A stretch of 64,000 nt of DNA from a virus. The notes below the pieces were generated by a model, which did not search any database, was not told the origin of the DNA, and saw only the letters and a list, made by a program, of their open reading frames with translations. A program made the translations under genes and the position numbers. Positions 2,195 to 64,000 of this stretch are shown here, piece by piece; the stretch's first letter is position 1, and each line of letters opens with the position of its first letter. The stretch spans positions 1 through 64,000 of the IMG/VR virus record IMGVR_UViG_3300046690_000279; one strand, written 5' to 3'.

Positions 2195-2270
2195 GTGGGT
2201 ATGGCCCAGTTGGTAGGGCGCCTGGTTTGGGACCAGGAAGTCACAGGTTCGAGCCCTGTTACCCGCACCA
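2195..2270 (+). tRNA. tRNA-Pro (TGG) with encoded CCA
   Basis: The acceptor GTGGGTA/TACCCGC has one T-G wobble. The anticodon arm is CCTGG TTTGGGA CCAGG and the T-arm ACAGG TTCGAGC CCTGT. The 3' ACCA is present, and its last two bases are also the first two of the palindromic operator variant at 2269-2290. The unit B copy (42402) lacks CCA. Confidence 0.9.
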
Positions 2271-2290
2271 CATACGGATATCCGGAGGTG
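2269..2290 (+). promoter_or_regulatory. Operator variant carrying a Shine-Dalgarno
   Basis: The left half CACATACGGAT is intact. The right half reads ATCCGGAGGTG in place of ATCCGTATGTG. The two changed bases create GGAGG, 6 nt before the GTG of the amidase gene. Same arrangement at 42568 in unit B. Confidence 0.75.
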
Positions 2291-2295
2291 CCCTG

Positions 2296-2793
2296 GTGGG
2301 CGAGCATGTCCCCCAGCCTGGCGACTTCGGCCTATGCCGGATATCCGGGCTCACTGGTGTTGCCGTGTCCGCTGGCCAACGCCTGATCGGCTCCGGTAGC
2401 TATTTCACGCACGCGTTTGTCTATGTCGGCAACGGCGAAGTGGTTCAGGCCCAACCGGGCGGAGCTAAGCGCATGCCGCTGAGCGACGCAGTGAGCAACC
2501 ACAGCCGCGTAGCGTACTCATCCTTTCCGCTGGCCCCTGTTCAGCGTGCTGCCATTTTGGGTGCGGCGACGTACCTGATTGGCACCCCGTACAGCTTTGC
2601 GGATTACGCGGCCATTGGTGCTCGTCGGCTGCTTGGCATTGCTGCGCTAGAACGCTTTGTGCGTGATAGCGGCCACATGATTTGTAGCCAGTTCGTCGAC
2701 GAGTGTTATCGGCGCGCTGGCTTTGAACTTTTCCCCGGGCGAATTCCGGGCGACGTTGCACCGGGCGACCTTGCCAGACTGATTGGAGCGTAG
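2296..2793 (+). CDS. YiiX/NlpC-like permuted papain amidase
   Basis: The 165-residue protein has the permuted order of YiiX-type NlpC/P60 enzymes. A basic-polar GDF start is followed by H39 in SYFTHAFVYV and, much later, C130 in HMICSQFVDECY, which are the likely catalytic His and Cys. Such enzymes cut amide bonds in peptidoglycan or lipid-linked substrates. There is no signal peptide. The GTG start is set by the GGAGG in the operator variant; an upstream extension would run through tRNA-Pro. Its place between the tRNAs and cos, far from the lysis genes, argues against a simple endolysin. Confidence 0.72.
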   Translation: MGEHVPQPGDFGLCRISGLTGVAVSAGQRLIGSGSYFTHAFVYVGNGEVVQAQPGGAKRMPLSDAVSNHSRVAYSSFPLAPVQRAAILGAATYLIGTPYSFADYAAIGARRLLGIAALERFVRDSGHMICSQFVDECYRRAGFELFPGRIPGDVAPGDLARLIGA

Positions 2794-4148: not shown

Positions 4149-4170
4149 CACATACGGATATCCGGAGGTG
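4149..4170 (+). promoter_or_regulatory. Operator variant carrying a Shine-Dalgarno
   Basis: Same two-base variant as at 2269. Its GGAGG lies 7 nt before the GTG at 4176. It starts 1 nt after the terS stop. In unit B the matching element (44523) stands directly before terL. Confidence 0.72.
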
Positions 4171-4175
4171 ATGGC

Positions 4176-4382
4176 GTGCCACGCTGGCTTACGCGGTTCC
4201 TCCATTGGAGCCACATCGTTCGGTCACCTGCGCTGGCTTTCCACGATTCCGTCAAGAACATTGACTGGTCGTCTGTCGCTGAGGGCATGGCCAAGTATGA
4301 GGACGCGTACCGCAAGGAAGACGGCGCACGCATCCTGGCTTGGTATGAGGCGCGCGAGGCTTGGCGTAAGGCGAACGAATGA
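4176..4382 (+). CDS. Small protein inserted between terS and terL
   Basis: 68 residues, basic N-terminus with aromatic residues (MPRWLTRFLHWSH), then a charged helix (KYEDAYRKEDGARILAWYEAREAWRK). The GTG is chosen because the SD of the operator variant sits 5 nt upstream. The stop overlaps the terL ATG (ATGA). Missing in unit B, so it is not needed for packaging. Family not recognised. Confidence 0.65.
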   Translation: MPRWLTRFLHWSHIVRSPALAFHDSVKNIDWSSVAEGMAKYEDAYRKEDGARILAWYEAREAWRKANE

Positions 4383-5896
4383 GTGCCCCCTATCTGCTGA
4401 CCCCGGTCACTAAGGCGGATGTCAAGCGGGGCGATGGCGCTGACTTCGTCGACTTCTCGCAATCCTTCCTGCGGATCACCAAAGACTCTGTCGGTGGGTC
4501 CAGCGGCGAACTGCTTGTCTTCCGGGACTGGCAGTGCCAACTGTTCGGCCGGTTGCTCGCACGGCGCCCTGACGGCCGTTACAAGCATCGCCAGGCACTC
4601 GTGGGCATGCCCCGCAAGAACGGCAAGAGCGCCGTAGGTGCCGCGCTGGCTATCTTCGGCCTGGTGTCCGGTCCCCGTGGTGGTGAGGTCTACTCCATCG
4701 CCGCTGACAAGGAACAAGCGCGAATCGTCTTCGGCACTGCCAAGAAAATGATCGAGATGGCGCCAGAGATGGCGAACTCTTTCAGGGTGTACCGGGACGC
4801 TGTTGAGCTACCGGCAACCGGGTCTGTGTACCGCGTGCTGTCTGCGGAAGCCTTCACCAAAGAGGGACTCAACCCGCATCTGACGATAGCCGACGAAGTC
4901 CACGCACAGCCCACCCGTGAACTCTGGGACGTCATGAGCCTTGCCTCTGGCGCTCGCGTAGAACCCATGATGGTGGGCATCACCACCGCTGGCGTGAAGT
5001 CGGATAGCTCCGGTGGCGACAGCCTGTGTTACGGCATGTACCAGTACGGCGAGAAGATCATTCGGGGCGAGATCAACGACCCCGCTTTCTACTTTGAGTG
5101 GTGGGGGGCGCCGGAAGGTGCCGACCACAAGGACCCAGCGGTATGGGCAGCAGCGAATCCGGGCTTCAACGACATTGTGAGCGAAGAGGATTTCCACTCC
5201 TCCGTGCTGCGGACCCCGGAAGCGGAGTACCGAACCAAGCGGATGAACCAATGGGTGTCGACGGCGCAAGCCTGGCTACCCGCTGGCGCTTGGGACGAGT
5301 GCGCTGGCGACGCTGAGAGCATCGAGCCGGGTACCGAGGTGGTCCTAGGCTTTGACGGCTCGTTCAACAACGACTCAACGGCGCTTGTGGTGGTTACCTG
5401 CCCCCGGGGCGAGGATGACAAGCCCCACATTGACGTCGTGGCAGCGTGGGAAAAGCCTACGGATGCCGGGCAAGACTGGTCAGTCCCCATCTTCGATGTT
5501 GAGGACGAGATACGTAAGGCTTGCCGACGCTGGCAGGTTCGCGAGATTGTCTGTGACCCGTTCCGCTGGGCGCGCACGTATCAGATCCTCGAATCTGAGG
5601 GCCTCCCGATCGTTGAGTTCCCGCAGTCCCCCGCGCGCATGGTTCCGGCGACGCAGCGCTATTACGAAGCCGTCATGAATAAGACGCTGACTCACAGCGG
5701 CGACCCGCGCCTAGCGCGCCATCTCTCGAACTGTGTCCTGCGGACCGATTCGCGCGGCTCGCGCCTGAGTAAGGACGCGAAGGGCTCGCCCCGGAAAATC
5801 GACCTTGCCGTTTCCGCTGTCATGGCGCTGGAACGAGCCTGCCAAGAGGCGGAAGTCATTCCCGAACCCCAGTTCTTCAGTTGGGCGGATCTATAA
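4379..5896 (+). CDS. terL: Terminase large subunit
   Basis: 505 residues. The ATPase domain has a Walker A loop GMPRKNGKS (about 75-83) and a Walker B IADEVH (about 170-175). The C-terminal RNase H-like nuclease begins at LGFDGSFNNDST (about 323) with acidic residues downstream. It pumps DNA into the prohead and cuts concatemers at cos. It starts inside the stop of the preceding ORF, so translation is coupled. Full family length. Confidence 0.96.
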   Translation: MSAPYLLTPVTKADVKRGDGADFVDFSQSFLRITKDSVGGSSGELLVFRDWQCQLFGRLLARRPDGRYKHRQALVGMPRKNGKSAVGAALAIFGLVSGPRGGEVYSIAADKEQARIVFGTAKKMIEMAPEMANSFRVYRDAVELPATGSVYRVLSAEAFTKEGLNPHLTIADEVHAQPTRELWDVMSLASGARVEPMMVGITTAGVKSDSSGGDSLCYGMYQYGEKIIRGEINDPAFYFEWWGAPEGADHKDPAVWAAANPGFNDIVSEEDFHSSVLRTPEAEYRTKRMNQWVSTAQAWLPAGAWDECAGDAESIEPGTEVVLGFDGSFNNDSTALVVVTCPRGEDDKPHIDVVAAWEKPTDAGQDWSVPIFDVEDEIRKACRRWQVREIVCDPFRWARTYQILESEGLPIVEFPQSPARMVPATQRYYEAVMNKTLTHSGDPRLARHLSNCVLRTDSRGSRLSKDAKGSPRKIDLAVSAVMALERACQEAEVIPEPQFFSWADL

Positions 5897-8015: not shown

Positions 8016-8037
8016 CACCTACGGATATCCGTATGTG
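8016..8037. promoter_or_regulatory. Palindromic operator before capsid
   Basis: CACCTACGGAT/ATCCGTATGTG: one base (C for A at position 4) breaks perfect symmetry. It lies between the protease stop and the capsid leader. The unit B copy is at 48190. Confidence 0.75.
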
Positions 8038-9534: not shown

Positions 9535-9556
9535 CACATACGGATATCCGTATGTG
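9535..9556. promoter_or_regulatory. Palindromic operator after capsid
   Basis: A perfect 22-bp palindrome, flanked by GGGGT on the left and CCCC on the right. In RNA it would form a long GC-clamped hairpin between the capsid gene and the connector genes. Counterpart at 49712. Confidence 0.8.
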
Positions 9557-17096: not shown

Positions 17097-17130
17097 GGGG
17101 AGCACATACGGATATCCGTATGTGCTCCCC
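17097..17130. promoter_or_regulatory. Palindromic operator, 34-bp perfect dyad
   Basis: The 22-bp palindrome (17103-17124) is extended by GGGGAG on the left and CTCCCC on the right, giving a perfect 34-bp dyad between the tape measure and tail-tip genes. As RNA it is a strong hairpin. Identical flanks at 57253. Confidence 0.82.
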
Positions 17131-22885: not shown

Positions 22886-22939
22886 CACATACGGATATCC
22901 GTATGTGGTTTGACAGCGCTAGACGCGCGCCGCTAGTCT
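22886..22939 (+). promoter_or_regulatory. Operator joined to a sigma-70 type promoter
   Basis: The perfect palindrome (22886-22907) is followed 2 nt later by TTGACA (22910-22915), an 18-nt spacer and TAGTCT (22934-22939). A leader with AACAACGAAGGGGC leads to the GTG at 22978. A protein bound at the palindrome would touch the -35 box, so this is the clearest evidence that the palindrome is an operator. Confidence 0.82.
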
Positions 22940-22977: not shown

Positions 22978-24225
22978 GTGAACGTGGTCAGCGTGAACGG
23001 CGGCAAGGTCCACTCGATGATGTCGGGCATGGATGAGCACCCGTACCCGCTGTGCCGTGGCGGTGGCCAGAACCAAATGGTGACCAAGTTCCGCGCTGTC
23101 GACGCCCCACTGTCCTGCAAGACCTGTCTGACCTATGAAGCGCGGCGCAATGCTGCTGCCGCCAAGGCTGAGGGAGAGACCACCATGACGGACCGTAACG
23201 ACGTGAACACGGACCAGGGCAAGGCCGTAATCGAGCAGGTCGACGCCAACATCGAGCGCGCTGCCTCGCTGATTGCCGACGGAAGCGACACGACGGAAGC
23301 GGTTGCTGAGCTGGACACGGAGACAGAGGCGCTGATTTCCTCGCTCAGCGGCAAGGGCTCCATCGCGATCAAGACTGCGAAGCGCGCCGCGTGGACTGCT
23401 GCTGTCACCACTCCCCCGGAGCCTGCACCGAAGGCAGAGATCGTCAAGTCTGAGGTGGTGGAAGGGGTCGTAGCCCCCAAGACGTGGGACCAGTACGAGG
23501 GCGTGCAGGAACTTGTCACCATGGGCGCCGAAAAGGTCGCCGACGGAGTCAAGGCCCATCTCAAGACGTCCACGCTGGCGAAGGAGGTTGCGGCGATCGG
23601 TCTGGACATGTGGCTCCGCATGCCGAACAAGGCTGGCCAGCCCGATTTGCTGGGCGACACGGACCCCGCGAAGAAAGCGTCTGGTGCGTTGCTGCGCGAG
23701 GCTGGCGAGCACTTCGATGACAACTACGACACGAAGACGGCGCTTAAGAAGCTGATGCGCAGCGTGCAGGACCAGCGCAGCGACGTTCGGGCCGAATGGC
23801 TGCGCTCGCTGGATGAGGACACCCCGATTGCCCTTGAGCGCCGAGCAATCATGGCAAAGGTGCTGGAGGGCAAGCCCGACGACGAGCCTGCCTCTGAGTG
23901 GGTCGCCAACGTCTACGGCACTAGCACGATCGGCCAGACCGAGCGCAAGAGGCTGGAGTACGAGGCCAAGAAGGCACTTTCGGCTAGCGAGAGCACCGGC
24001 GCGGGAAGCGACAGTGACAGCGAAGGAGAGGGCGACGGCGACGGCGCAGAGCAGAGCACCCCGGACGAGCGTGTGAAGCTGGTGGCAAAGAAGATCTATA
24101 CCGACATCAGCAACGCGAGCGTCGACGACTTCGAGAACGCCAGCGAGGAGACCAAGGAAGCCATCAGGACTGAGCTGGAAAACGCGCTTGAAGGCCTGCG
24201 CGCCATGATCAAGGCCACTATCTGA
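22978..24225 (+). CDS. Large early protein with acidic C-terminal region
   Basis: 415 residues. Residues 1-69 form a small Cys-containing module (HPYPLCRGGG, SCKTC) that unit B lacks; there the protein begins at MTDRNDVNTDQGK. The rest is helical, with TWDQYEGVQELVTMGAEK and ALDM/GLDMWLRMPNKAG strongly conserved, an acidic stretch (GSDSDSEGEGDGDG) about 340-355 and a helical end. An ATG at 23185 preceded by GGGAGAG could give the short form. First gene behind the operator-promoter. Family not recognised. Confidence 0.75.
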   Translation: MNVVSVNGGKVHSMMSGMDEHPYPLCRGGGQNQMVTKFRAVDAPLSCKTCLTYEARRNAAAAKAEGETTMTDRNDVNTDQGKAVIEQVDANIERAASLIADGSDTTEAVAELDTETEALISSLSGKGSIAIKTAKRAAWTAAVTTPPEPAPKAEIVKSEVVEGVVAPKTWDQYEGVQELVTMGAEKVADGVKAHLKTSTLAKEVAAIGLDMWLRMPNKAGQPDLLGDTDPAKKASGALLREAGEHFDDNYDTKTALKKLMRSVQDQRSDVRAEWLRSLDEDTPIALERRAIMAKVLEGKPDDEPASEWVANVYGTSTIGQTERKRLEYEAKKALSASESTGAGSDSDSEGEGDGDGAEQSTPDERVKLVAKKIYTDISNASVDDFENASEETKEAIRTELENALEGLRAMIKATI

Positions 24226-28094: not shown

Positions 28095-28116
28095 CACATA
28101 CGGATATCCGGAGGTG
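28095..28116 (+). promoter_or_regulatory. Operator variant carrying a Shine-Dalgarno
   Basis: Same two-base variant as at 2269, here in the early region. GGAGG is 7 nt before the GTG at 28123. Confidence 0.72.
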
Positions 28117-28122
28117 ACCCCT

Positions 28123-28293
28123 GTGACTATCTCGGGGACGGCTGCACCCGCGCTGGGTGATGTGCGGGCAGCAGCGTACGGAGAAACCATCTGGCTTAAG
28201 CCAGGTGCAACGAAGCGTAAGGACTGGCCCCGGTACATGGACGCGCTCACTGTGGCGCTGACTCGGGGCGTTGACGTTAGGTGGGTCCGATGA
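28123..28293 (+). CDS. Small hypothetical protein
   Basis: 56 residues; GTG set by the SD within the operator variant. Contains AYGETIWLKPGATKRKDWPR, basic and aromatic. Its stop overlaps the next ATG. Function unknown. Confidence 0.6.
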   Translation: MTISGTAAPALGDVRAAAYGETIWLKPGATKRKDWPRYMDALTVALTRGVDVRWVR

Positions 28294-31314: not shown

Positions 31315-31346
31315 GGGGTCACCTACGGATATCCGTATGTGACCCC
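31315..31346. promoter_or_regulatory. Palindromic operator between primase and polymerase
   Basis: CACCTACGGAT/ATCCGTATGTG (31320-31341) with GGGGT and ACCCC flanks forms a 32-bp dyad with one mismatch. Confidence 0.78.
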
Positions 31347-33672: not shown

Positions 33673-34803
33673 ATGTCTCTCACCATCGAGCACATTCGCG
33701 CCGCGCAGGACAACGACCTTGCCGCCATCACGGCAGTCATCGCCGACATGGACGAGCGCATATCCCGGCTCGCTGCGCAGGCTGCACGACGACTGAACGG
33801 CGACCACCGCGAAGACTTCGAGCAGGACGCACGCGAGGCACTCTTCAGGGCGCTCCCGCGCTTCGACGCTGACACCGTGGACGCGTTCCACGGGTTCATG
33901 TTCAGCAGCATTCAGGACGCACTGAAGGACAAGGTTCGCTCTGCGCGATACGTCGGTGTGGACAAGGACGCAGTGAAGGTCTTCATGTCGATGCTGGGCG
34001 ACGCTGAGGGCGACCCGTACCGCGCTGAGCAGATGGCGCAGACCGTTCCCGCTAAGGGGCTCCGACTCAGCGCCGACCGTGCCCACGCTGCGCGGCTCGC
34101 ATGGCAGGGCATCGTGTCTGTGGACCAGGTGGCCGGTTCGGGTGGCACACAGCACGGGAACGGGTTCGCAGGTAACGGCACGATTGCCGACACGCTGGCC
34201 GTGACTGACGAACTCCCCCAGGTTCAGCCGAAGGTTGGTCACGGTGCCGCTCTGGAAGCGCTGGCCGTGCTCAACCGGTACGTGTGCGTGGGTGTCCGGC
34301 GCATGACTCCGGGCGAGTTTTCTGCCAACCTGCCCGCGCTGGTCGAGGCGCTGGAAGACACCGTGCGGGTGCCCAGTGACCCGACGATTCGCCGCTATGT
34401 GCTGGACGCGATGGCCATCCTGCGTTCCGCTGTGTCGACTGCTTCCGATGGCGACCTTGCCGATGAACTGCGGGATGTGTCCGACGATCGGCGCGACGAG
34501 CGGGTAGCCAAGATCGAAATGATTCGCAATGCGCTGGGCAGGGTGAGCGCGCAGCAGTACACCATCTTGGTTCACTCGTTCGGCATCGGCGGCGCGGAAG
34601 ACTTCGGGTGGGGCGATGGCTCCGACCTTGACGGGCTTGCCAAGTTCCTCGGCACGACACCTGGCAACGTCAAGAAGCAGCGCTCGGCCGGACGGCTGGC
34701 GTTTACGAAGCACTTCATAGCCTTGGCGGTGCACACCCTCGAAGCTGCGATGGCGTGGGAAGCTGCCGCCGCTGAGATGCGCAAGCCTGCTGGCCGCAAG
34801 TGA
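33673..34803 (+). CDS. Sigma-70-like regulator
   Basis: 376 residues. Residues about 45-88 (DFEQDAREALFRALPRF, then AFHGFMFSSIQDALKDK) follow the sigma region 2 pattern, in which an acidic helix and FD precede an aromatic, -10 binding helix. Residues about 286-350 (LGRVSAQQYTILVHSFGIGG, LAKFLGTTPGNVKKQRSAGR) follow region 4 with its helix-turn-helix. The middle is unlike region 3. It may be a phage sigma factor for the GGTAACCGAC elements. Its place after the polymerase is where I recall the phiC31 repressor gene, so a DNA-binding regulator without polymerase contact is the alternative. SD CGGAGT. Confidence 0.68.
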   Translation: MSLTIEHIRAAQDNDLAAITAVIADMDERISRLAAQAARRLNGDHREDFEQDAREALFRALPRFDADTVDAFHGFMFSSIQDALKDKVRSARYVGVDKDAVKVFMSMLGDAEGDPYRAEQMAQTVPAKGLRLSADRAHAARLAWQGIVSVDQVAGSGGTQHGNGFAGNGTIADTLAVTDELPQVQPKVGHGAALEALAVLNRYVCVGVRRMTPGEFSANLPALVEALEDTVRVPSDPTIRRYVLDAMAILRSAVSTASDGDLADELRDVSDDRRDERVAKIEMIRNALGRVSAQQYTILVHSFGIGGAEDFGWGDGSDLDGLAKFLGTTPGNVKKQRSAGRLAFTKHFIALAVHTLEAAMAWEAAAAEMRKPAGRK

Positions 34804-35516: not shown

Positions 35517-35538
35517 CACATACGGATATCCGTATGTG
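35517..35538. promoter_or_regulatory. Palindromic operator
   Basis: A perfect 22-bp palindrome flanked by GGGAGG and CTCCC, so it can form a clamped hairpin with one bulge. Confidence 0.78.
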
Positions 35539-36390: not shown

Positions 36391-36444
36391 CACATACGGA
36401 TATCCGTATGTGGGTTGCGCGAGTGCCCCACATGCCCCTAGGTT
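36391..36444 (+). promoter_or_regulatory. Operator joined to a sigma-70 type promoter
   Basis: A perfect palindrome (36391-36412), then TTGCGC (36415-36420), an 18-nt spacer and TAGGTT (36439-36444). The leader contains ACAACAGCAACGAAGGGGC as at 22978. Same geometry as 22886. Confidence 0.8.
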
Positions 36445-42567: not shown

Positions 42568-42589
42568 CACATACGGATATCCGGAGGTG
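42568..42589 (+). promoter_or_regulatory. Operator variant carrying a Shine-Dalgarno (unit B)
   Basis: Same two-base variant; GGAGG ends 6 nt before the TTG start at 42595. It follows the CCA of the tRNA-like element directly. Confidence 0.75.
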
Positions 42590-42594
42590 CCCCG

Positions 42595-43092
42595 TTGGGC
42601 GAGCATGTCCCCCAGCCTGGTGACTTCGGCCTATGCCGGATATCCGGGCTCACTGGCGCTGCTGTGTCCGCTGGCCAACGCCTGATCGGTTCCGGTAGCT
42701 ACTTCACGCACGCGTTCATCTACCTCGGCGACGGCGAAGTGATTCAGGCCCAACCGGGCGGAGCTAAGCGCATGCTGCTGAGTGACGCCGTGAGCGACCA
42801 CAGCCGCGTAGCGTACTCGTCCTTCCCGCTGGCCCCTATTCAGCGCGCTGCCATTCTGGGCGCAGCGACGTACCTGATTGGCACCCCGTACAGCTTCGCG
42901 GATTACGCGGCCATTGGTGCCCGTCGACTGCTTGGCGTTGCCACGCTGGAACGATTTGTGCGCGATAGCGGCCACATGATTTGTAGTCAGTTCGTCGATG
43001 AGTGTTATCGGCGCGCTGGCTTTGAGCTTTTCCCCGGGCGAATTCCGGGCGATGTTGCCCCTGGCGACCTTGCCAACCTGATTGGAGCGTAG
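42595..43092 (+). CDS. YiiX/NlpC-like amidase (unit B)
   Basis: 165 residues from a TTG start, where unit A uses GTG. The His (SYFTHAFIYL) and Cys (HMICSQFVDECY) motifs are unchanged; most differences are conservative. The weak start codon behind a strong SD suggests that output is held low. Confidence 0.72.
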   Translation: MGEHVPQPGDFGLCRISGLTGAAVSAGQRLIGSGSYFTHAFIYLGDGEVIQAQPGGAKRMLLSDAVSDHSRVAYSSFPLAPIQRAAILGAATYLIGTPYSFADYAAIGARRLLGVATLERFVRDSGHMICSQFVDECYRRAGFELFPGRIPGDVAPGDLANLIGA

Positions 43093-44522: not shown

Positions 44523-44544
44523 CACATACGGATATCCGGAGGTG
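44523..44544 (+). promoter_or_regulatory. Operator variant carrying the terL Shine-Dalgarno
   Basis: Same two-base variant; GGAGG lies 7 nt before the terL GTG. Confidence 0.75.
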
Positions 44545-44549
44545 ACCTA

Positions 44550-46070
44550 GTGGGCAGCACGCCTTATCTGCTGACCCCGGTCACGAAGGCGGACGTTAAG
44601 CGGGGCGACGGAGGAGACTTCGTCGACTTCTCGCAGAGCTTCCTGCGGATCACCAAAGACTCTGTCGGCGGGTCCAGCGGCGAACTGCTTGTCTTCCGGG
44701 ACTGGCAGCGCCAACTGTTCGGCCGGTTGCTCGCACGGCGCCCTGACGGCCGTTACAAGCATCGCCAGGCACTCGTGGGCATGCCCCGCAAGAACGGCAA
44801 GAGCGCTGTCGGCGCAGCCTTGGCTATCTTCGGCCTGGTGTCCGGTCCCCGTGGTGGTGAGGTCTACTCCATCGCCGCTGACAAGGAACAAGCGCGCATC
44901 GTTTTCGGCACTGCCAAGAAAATGATTGAGATGGCGCCAGAGATGGCGAACAGCTTTCGCGTGTACCGGGACGCTGTGGAGCTACCGGCGACCGGGTCTG
45001 TGTATCGCGTGCTGTCCGCTGAGGCGTTCACGAAGGAGGGACTTAACCCTCACCTGACGATCGCCGACGAAGTCCACGCGCAGCCCACCCGTGAACTCTG
45101 GGACGTCATGAGCCTCGCCTCTGGCGCCCGTGTTGAACCCATGATGGTGGGCATCACTACCGCTGGCGTGAAGTCGGATAGCTCCGGTGGCGACAGCCTG
45201 TGTTACGGCATGTATCAGTACGGCGAGAAAATCATTCGGGGCGAAATCAAGGACCCCGCCTTTTACTTTGAGTGGTGGGGAGCGCCGGAAGGTGCCGACC
45301 ACAAGGACCCAGCGGTATGGGCTGCCGCTAACCCGGGCTTCAACGACATTGTCAGCGAAGAAGACTTCCACTCCTCCGTACTGCGTACCCCGGAAGCGGA
45401 GTACCGCACTAAGCGGATGAACCAATGGGTATCGACGGCGCAGGCCTGGCTACCCGCTGGCGCTTGGGACGAGTGCGCTGGCGACGCTGAGAGCATCGAG
45501 CCGGGTACCGAGGTGGTCCTAGGCTTTGATGGCTCGTTCAACAACGACTCAACGGCGCTTGTGGTGGTCACCTGCCCGCAGGGTGAGGATGACAAGCCAC
45601 ACATCGACGTAGTCGCAGCGTGGGAAAAGCCTACGGATGCCGGGCAGGACTGGTCGGTACCCATCTTCGACGTTGAGGACGAGATACGTAAGGCCTGCCG
45701 ACGCTGGCAGGTTCGCGAAATCGTCTGCGACCCGTTCCGCTGGGCGCGCACGTATCAAATCCTCGAATCTGAAGGCCTCCCGATCGTGGAGTTCCCGCAG
45801 TCTCCCGCGCGCATGGTTCCGGCGACGCAGCGCTATTACGAAGCCGTCATGAACAAGACTCTGACTCATAGCGGTGACCCTCGCCTAGCGCGCCATCTCT
45901 CGAACTGCATTCTTCGCACGGATTCGCGCGGCTCGCGCCTGAGTAAGGACGCTAAGGGTTCGCCCCGGAAAATCGACCTTGCCGTTTCCGCTGTCATGGC
46001 GCTGGAACGAGCCTGCCAAGAAGCGGAAGTTATCCCCGAACCCCAGTTCTTTAGTTGGGCGGATCTATAA
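44550..46070 (+). CDS. terL: Terminase large subunit (unit B)
   Basis: 506 residues from GTG. Apart from the first five residues and a few substitutions (CQLFG to RQLFG, DGADF to DGGDF) it matches unit A; Walker A GMPRKNGKS and the nuclease Asp in LGFDGS are unchanged. Here translation starts from its own SD inside the operator variant and is not coupled to an upstream ORF. Confidence 0.96.
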   Translation: MGSTPYLLTPVTKADVKRGDGGDFVDFSQSFLRITKDSVGGSSGELLVFRDWQRQLFGRLLARRPDGRYKHRQALVGMPRKNGKSAVGAALAIFGLVSGPRGGEVYSIAADKEQARIVFGTAKKMIEMAPEMANSFRVYRDAVELPATGSVYRVLSAEAFTKEGLNPHLTIADEVHAQPTRELWDVMSLASGARVEPMMVGITTAGVKSDSSGGDSLCYGMYQYGEKIIRGEIKDPAFYFEWWGAPEGADHKDPAVWAAANPGFNDIVSEEDFHSSVLRTPEAEYRTKRMNQWVSTAQAWLPAGAWDECAGDAESIEPGTEVVLGFDGSFNNDSTALVVVTCPQGEDDKPHIDVVAAWEKPTDAGQDWSVPIFDVEDEIRKACRRWQVREIVCDPFRWARTYQILESEGLPIVEFPQSPARMVPATQRYYEAVMNKTLTHSGDPRLARHLSNCILRTDSRGSRLSKDAKGSPRKIDLAVSAVMALERACQEAEVIPEPQFFSWADL

Positions 46071-48189: not shown

Positions 48190-48211
48190 CACATACGGAT
48201 ATCCGTACGTG
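48190..48211. promoter_or_regulatory. Palindromic operator before capsid (unit B)
   Basis: CACATACGGAT/ATCCGTACGTG, one mismatch in the right arm, where the unit A copy has its mismatch in the left arm. Confidence 0.75.
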
Positions 48212-49711: not shown

Positions 49712-49733
49712 CACCTACGGATATCCGTATGTG
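49712..49733. promoter_or_regulatory. Palindromic operator after capsid (unit B)
   Basis: CACCTACGGAT/ATCCGTATGTG with GGTTGG and GTGGCC flanks; the clamp is weaker than at 9535. Confidence 0.76.
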
Positions 49734-57252: not shown

Positions 57253-57286
57253 GGGGAGCACATACGGATATCCGTATGTGCTCCCC
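57253..57286. promoter_or_regulatory. Palindromic operator, 34-bp dyad (unit B)
   Basis: The same perfect dyad as at 17097, including the GGGGAG/CTCCCC flanks. Confidence 0.82.
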
Positions 57287-63046: not shown

Positions 63047-63100
63047 CACATACGGATATCCGTAGGTGGGTTGCGCCAGCCGTGCCGCAGCGCTTTACTG
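63047..63100 (+). promoter_or_regulatory. Operator-promoter of the extra gene
   Basis: CACATACGGAT/ATCCGTAGGTG (63047-63068) has one of the two changes that create the SD variant. TTGCGC (63071-63076), an 18-nt spacer and TTACTG (63095-63100) follow. The leader has CACAACGAAGGGACG. Confidence 0.7.
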
Positions 63101-63450: not shown

Positions 63451-63504
63451 CACCTACGGATATCCGTATGTGGTTTGACAGCGCCGAGCGCCAGCCGCTA
63501 GGTT
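63451..63504 (+). promoter_or_regulatory. Operator-promoter of the large early gene (unit B)
   Basis: CACCTACGGAT/ATCCGTATGTG (63451-63472), TTGACA (63475-63480), an 18-nt spacer and TAGGTT (63499-63504), then AAACAACGAAGGGGC. Same geometry as 22886. Confidence 0.82.
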
Positions 63505-63542: not shown

Positions 63543-64000
63543 ATGACCGACCGTAACGACGTGAACACGGACCAGGGCAAGACTGCGATTGACCAGGCTG
63601 AGGCCAACATCGAGCGCGCTGCCGCCCTGGTCGCGGACGGGAGTGACACCACGGAGCTGGTAGCGGAGCTGCACACGGAGACAGAGGCGCTGATCTCATC
63701 CCTCAGCGGCAAGGGCTCCATCGCCGTTAAGAAGCAACTGCGCGACGCGTGGACCGATGTAACCTCCGCTCCAGCGCCGAAGGCAGAGATCGTGAAGTCT
63801 GAGGTCACGGAAGGGGTCGTAGTCGCCAAAACGTGGGACCAGTACGAAGGCGTGCAGGAACTCGTCACCATGGGTGCCGAGAAGATCGCGGACGGCGTCA
63901 AGGCCCATCTGAAGACTTCCACGCTGGCGAAGGACGTTGCGGCGTTGGCGCTGGACATGTGGCTGCGCATGCCGAACAAGGCTGGGGCGCCGGACTTGCT
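63543..64000 (+). CDS. Large early protein, N-terminal part (unit B)
   Basis: 152 residues are visible before the window edge. It starts at MTDRNDVNTDQGKTAIDQAE, equal to residue 70 of the unit A protein, behind its own SD GAAGGGGC. TWDQYEGVQELVTMGAEKIA is conserved. The Cys-containing N-terminal module of unit A is missing. Confidence 0.78.
   Translation, partial: MTDRNDVNTDQGKTAIDQAEANIERAAALVADGSDTTELVAELHTETEALISSLSGKGSIAVKKQLRDAWTDVTSAPAPKAEIVKSEVTEGVVVAKTWDQYEGVQELVTMGAEKIADGVKAHLKTSTLAKDVAALALDMWLRMPNKAGAPDL

Follow-up and report, generated by a model that had tools for sequence, protein, structure and literature searches.

The IMG/VR record IMGVR_UViG_3300046690_000279 is 81.7 kb long, and its first 64,000 nucleotides (the window, which is the whole stretch analysed here; features are given on the + strand) contain two phiC31-like phage genomes arranged end to end with an offset of about 40.2 kb. 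The two genomes are ~90% identical overall, with identities of 81–98% in aligned 300-nt stretches. The DNA polymerase, the gene order and the repressor place them among the phiC31-like Streptomyces phages, with Rowa as the nearest sequenced relative. The presence of two such genomes in one record could reflect prophages in tandem or the joining of co-occurring phages during assembly.

A 22-bp palindrome, CACATACGGATATCCGTATGTG, is dispersed over both genomes. In the window, 17 full-length copies (22-mers) deviate from the palindrome at no more than two positions, and its core CGGATATCCG (≤ 1 mismatch) has 22 matches compared to 1.5 expected, a count reached in none of 100 shuffled sequences. 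There are 21 sites in the complete record, six of them with the right arm GAGGTG. Five of these six (2269..2290, 4149..4170, 28095..28116, 42568..42589 and 44523..44544) are located in the window and are the only ones among its 17 sites that read CACATACGGATATCCGGAGGTG, as stated in a preliminary description of this DNA, which had been drawn to the site at 28095; the sixth is at 68668. This arm, which differs from TATGTG by two base changes, contains a Shine–Dalgarno (SD) sequence, and each of the five sites is followed by a start codon 5–6 nt further on, also as initially described: GTG at 2296 (+5), GTG at 4176 (+5), GTG at 28123 (+6), TTG at 42595 (+5) and GTG at 44550 (+5). The two genomes are homologous, and the five sites therefore represent three independent loci.

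At the first locus, the operator at 2269 overlaps with its first two nucleotides the 3′ end of a tRNA-Pro gene (2195–2270), compared to a distance of 91 nt between the tRNA-Pro gene and the corresponding operator in the second genome. The gene that follows (2296..2793, 165 aa) is assigned to C92/NlpC-like permuted peptidases through the Pfam match of its second-genome counterpart (42595..43092, 165 aa), a match that lies below the cut-off. At the second locus, the operator, SD arm and start codon precede the terminase large subunit in genome 2 (44550..46070, 506 aa), where the operator lies immediately 3′ of an upstream TAG stop codon, and a 68-codon ORF (4176..4382) in genome 1. The stop codon of this ORF overlaps the start of the genome 1 terminase (ATGA at 4379), which couples the two genes translationally; the terminase itself (4379..5896) was recognized by its correspondence with 44550–46070 (direct repeat D4). 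The ORF between operator and terminase occurs in genome 1 only, and a search for a family match to it returned none. The third locus carries a homologue of phiC31 gp5 (28123..28293, 56 aa; phrog_15072, E = 7e-28).

The presumed binding protein is encoded at 22978..24225, where a c-type repressor gene (Pfam PF25746, Phage_Repressor_c, E = 6e-78) is located between the dNMP kinase and exonuclease genes, in the same order as in phiC31. Its product shares 55% identity with the Rowa immunity repressor and 31% with BT1 c, and genome 2 carries a repressor gene of its own at 63567. Both repressor genes are preceded by an operator with TTGACA next to it (22886..22907 and 63451..63472), the promoters being assigned here by pattern match. 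Phages phiC31, BT1, Vash, Samora, Shawty, TG1, AbbeyMikolon, Sebastisaurus, Shady and Rowa each possess an operator palindrome of their own in 12–24 copies, while no clear operator set was found in Dubu in the same scan of relatives. Sequence comparison makes it very likely that a phiC31-type c repressor has this palindrome as its operator.

To relate the form of the arms to their surroundings, we used 56 distinct sites with the same palindrome from IMG/VR contigs, oriented by transcription. All 15 distinct sites with the right arm GAGGTG are located 0–6 nt before a start codon with an ORF, and this arm is absent from the other 41; the 15 sites represent three loci in closely related phages, and since sites in the sample are phylogenetically related, the p-values given here are inflated and only indicative. 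Within one genome alone, the association between the GAGGTG arm and a start is 3 of 3 compared with 0 of 7 (exact p = 1/120, or 0.008). All eight distinct TAGGTG right arms have a TTGCGC/TTGACA-like (–35-like) hexamer at +2, and TAGGTG arms are for this reason assigned to a promoter class, to which they are restricted (8 of its 11 sites). Neither TAGGTG nor GAGGTG occurs at the 30 other intergenic sites, which carry TATGTG, TACGTG or, once, CACGTG, and are usually enclosed in longer inverted repeats; the pairing extends outward by a median of 6 bp at these sites compared to 0–2 bp at the SD sites (Mann–Whitney p = 3e-7). The form of the arm thus tracks its context in three classes, namely promoter, intergenic and ribosome-binding site. 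Exceptions exist at the level of single arms: Rowa-type phages also have GAGGTG arms without a start codon, so that a GAGGTG arm alone does not prove its use as an SD, and one relative of the gp5 locus (L074) has TAGGTG at the coupled site.

The remaining sites of the window can be assigned to the other two classes. Operators 22886 and 36391..36412 (both perfect palindromes), 63047..63068 (right arm TAGGTG) and 63451 stand directly before TTGACA or TTGCGC, and three of them have TAGGTT or TAGTCT 18 nt later (TTGCGC followed by TAGGTT at 36391, TTGACA followed by TAGGTT at 63451). These four are likely repressed early promoters, a class common to the relatives. The site at 63047 had been described as an intermediate on the way to the SD form; one of the two changes is indeed present there, yet TTGCGC follows and the surroundings are those of a promoter. 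The intergenic class comprises 8016..8037, 9535..9556, 17103..17124, 31320..31341 (upstream of the DNA polymerase gene) and 35517..35538, together with 48190..48211 (right arm TACGTG), 49712..49733 and 57259..57280 in genome 2. Six of these (9535, 17103, 31320, 35517, 49712 and 57259) have complementary flanks that place them in longer inverted repeats, such as ggggag-operator-ctcccc at 17103, with strong predicted RNA hairpins. Hairpin-flanked operators are likewise found at 34781 in phiC31 and 27027 in BT1, there with T-rich sequence after them, which gives the appearance of an operator fused to a terminator. A scan for terminator-like structures between 22 and 40 kb of the window found no excess over shuffled sequences (12 compared to 10.7), and we therefore do not call these operators terminators.

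The operators at the three loci are better conserved than their surroundings, as measured by ungapped comparison with the immediate 22-nt flanks, which understates similarity where indels are present. The identity is 100% in the operator compared to 36% in the upstream and 75% in the downstream flank at the C92 locus, 100% compared to 53% and 65% at the terminase locus, and 97% compared to 55% and 35% at the gp5 locus. At loci of the 4149 type the operator is 100% identical, with flanks at 96% upstream and 77% downstream, and a different ORF follows the same SD operator. The left half and core are identical in 14 of the 15 distinct SD sites in spite of the diverging flanks. The claim that these parts are never altered is correct for the five SD sites of the window but not in general, as four other window sites have the left arm CACCTA, and the same left arm stands beside an SD arm in one related contig (L035). 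In all but 2 of the 56 sites CACATA is kept in at least one arm; the two sites with both arms non-consensus compare to about 9 expected (Fisher p = 4e-5, or 0.002 without the SD sites), as would be expected if protein binding is maintained. The proposal that both functions are under selection is borne out insofar as the two fused elements, a palindrome of the repressor type and a ribosome site, are each conserved.

On the side of the ribosome, predicted energies of pairing between the arm and the 3′ end of the 16S rRNA, which carries the anti-SD, are about –3.6 kcal/mol for TATGTG, –8.3 for TAGGTG and –15.2 for GAGGTG. In Rowa, the three genes with an operator-borne SD rank 1, 2 and 5 among 61 CDS in SD strength. 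The same two changes affect the predicted folding of the transcript: the hairpin of the 22-mer weakens from –12.6 kcal/mol in the perfect palindrome to –5.7 kcal/mol in the SD form, and the predicted probability that the arm is unpaired is 0.16–0.56 in the SD form compared to 0–0.22 in the perfect palindrome. The suggestion that the core could fold against the SD is not supported by these predictions, as an opened arm is the opposite of what sequestration as the main effect would require.

Comparisons among relatives indicate that the coupling of operator and start is older than its present form. Seven of eight relatives, namely phiC31, BT1, Vash, Samora, Shawty, Sebastisaurus and Rowa, have an operator that ends 5–7 nt before gp5, and TG1 is the only one of the eight with a separate SD at this gene. 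Because the coupling is retained in relatives with other operator sequences, it predates the GGAGG form and, as the sequences read, has outlived a change of the operator sequence itself. In phiC31 and phiBT1, the repressor is syntenic and of the same Pfam family, and the operators of c (conserved inverted repeats, CIBs) are likewise 15–16 dispersed near-perfect palindromes, located between genes and at promoters, with one directly before gp5. Their sequence is different (CCTACTCACGTGAGTAGG) and the arms have not been turned into GGAGG, hence the weak SD at gp5, which has a predicted energy of –6.9 kcal/mol for the coupled arm in phiC31 with the start position taken from the annotation. The original reports on the phiC31 operator are Ingham 1994 (NAR) and Smith 1999 (NAR).

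In Rowa, the annotated genes gp37, gp50 and gp62 start 5–6 nt after an operator with the right arm GGAGGTG, as in the window; the Rowa operator differs by its asymmetric core and by having GAGGTG as a normal half-site, also away from starts. The corresponding half-site CACCTCCG, of which the SD arm CGGAGGTG is the reverse complement, makes up 9 of 17 left arms and 9 of 17 right arms in Rowa, and Rowa-type contigs are alike in this respect. As Rowa uses CACCTCCG on both arms, the SD arm of the window may be a tolerated rather than a lost half-site, and the initial term half-operator is not warranted.

These results lead us to propose, with a probability of about 0.72, that the 22-bp palindromes are dispersed operators (of the stoperator or CIB type) of a phiC31-type c repressor, and that three loci double as ribosome-binding sites by means of a tuned arm. 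At these loci, where the operator abuts the start codon, the gene-proximal arm would have been tuned from CACATACG to CACCTCCG within the tolerance of the repressor, which would still bind it, and on the mRNA this arm would act as the strong Shine–Dalgarno sequence GGAGGTG. With the repressor bound in a lysogen, RNA polymerase would be halted at the gene or ahead of it, whereas in lytic growth the free arm would recruit ribosomes. According to the folding predictions, the same two changes would also break the hairpin that a perfect palindrome would lay over the ribosome site. It is also possible, though we regard it as improbable, that repressor specificity and ribosome binding co-evolved: the half-site would have moved toward CACCTCC, the anti-SD of the 16S rRNA, so that any operator before a start serves as a ribosome site, with three context-tuned forms (promoter, intergenic hairpin and ribosome-binding site).

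The near-optimal SD created by the two changes could also mean that the right arm is a plain ribosome site, with repressor binding lost or irrelevant and the left half and core persisting as remnants of an older operator. This is unlikely given that the left half and core of the SD sites resist the divergence of their flanks, that Rowa uses the changed arm as a regular half-site, and that the coupling at gp5 persists in phages whose operator is quite different. Alternatively, the palindrome could act mainly in RNA, with the core hairpin gating the SD as a translational switch or thermosensor, and a residual hairpin of 3+3 bp can indeed form in the SD variant; the L035 site is predicted to form a hairpin of –10.1 kcal/mol. 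We consider such a role very unlikely, as the hairpin becomes weaker and the SD arm more open with the two changes, the promoter-class sites indicate a role in DNA, and a DNA site explains the conserved outer bases.

Recombination between gene modules might likewise produce identical operators amid unrelated flanks if the operator were conserved as the joint, and both the upstream sequences at the C92 locus, which are nearly unrelated (36%) in phages whose operators are identical, and the different ORFs after the operator at the terminase locus fit this notion. It leaves the link between arm type and start or promoter unexplained and is equally improbable as the main cause, but could act alongside the dual use of the operator proposed above. 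Least probable of all is binding by a different protein, such as a partition or host factor. Against it stand the synteny of the family, the repressor gene with an operator directly upstream at a TTGACA hexamer, and the precedent of phiC31 (PMC4557955).

With operators that probably double as ribosome sites, the window holds a conserved variant of the known phiC31-type switch system rather than a switch of a new kind. The preliminary description regarded the combination as new, which is fair in its details but less so in its elements. Dispersed repressor sites are known from the phiC31 and L5 genomes, which contain 18–30 of them (PMC4557955), and the stoperators of L5/Cluster A and R4 are likewise numerous genome-wide repressor sites that silence transcription (PMC4557955, PMC10276819). 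Unlike the palindromic sites of the window, L5 stoperators are short, asymmetric, oriented with transcription and bound by a monomer of a different protein family; R4, whose repressor is annotated as L5 gp71-like, was set aside as a relative. Repeats containing an SD are known from Cluster K, where SAS/ESAS elements lie 3–7 bp from the start and half of them occur together with inverted repeats, which may be protein-binding (PMC3203893). These SAS are start-adjacent like the sites described here, but they are separate, non-palindromic 13-bp sequences, GGGATAGGAGCCC, and their inverted repeats lie upstream and are themselves devoid of an SD (PMC3203893). The window repeat CACATACGGATATCCGGAGGTG is not the 13-bp GGGATAGGAGCCC and does not belong to the SAS.

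A phage in need of many repressor sites, but with only very short gaps between its genes, could in this way use one stretch of DNA for both purposes, as operator and as ribosome site. If the repressor does bind the SD form, silencing in the lysogen and translation in lytic growth would be wired through the same bases. The natural series TATGTG, TAGGTG and GAGGTG could also serve as a gauge of the operator positions at which a phiC31-type repressor tolerates change.

An additional exact copy of the core CGGATATCCG within the C92 gene (2338 and 42637), 63 bp from the SD operator, was considered as a paired operator six helical turns away and rejected; it lies in coding sequence, its arms mismatch, the core is lost in one relative (L022), and it is probably a coincidence. 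Matches to the palindrome are also present in Streptomyces chromosomes. The repressor family was found in none of seven Streptomyces genomes with such matches, in a search whose built-in control remained unmatched but whose query did find both copies in the record; the chromosomal palindromes are for this reason probably due to chance or unrelated. Among these chromosomal matches, L047, L048 and L049 carry CACCTACGGATATCCGTAGGTG with complementary flanks that make it part of a longer palindrome, perfect or nearly so, which seems to have no relation to the phage.
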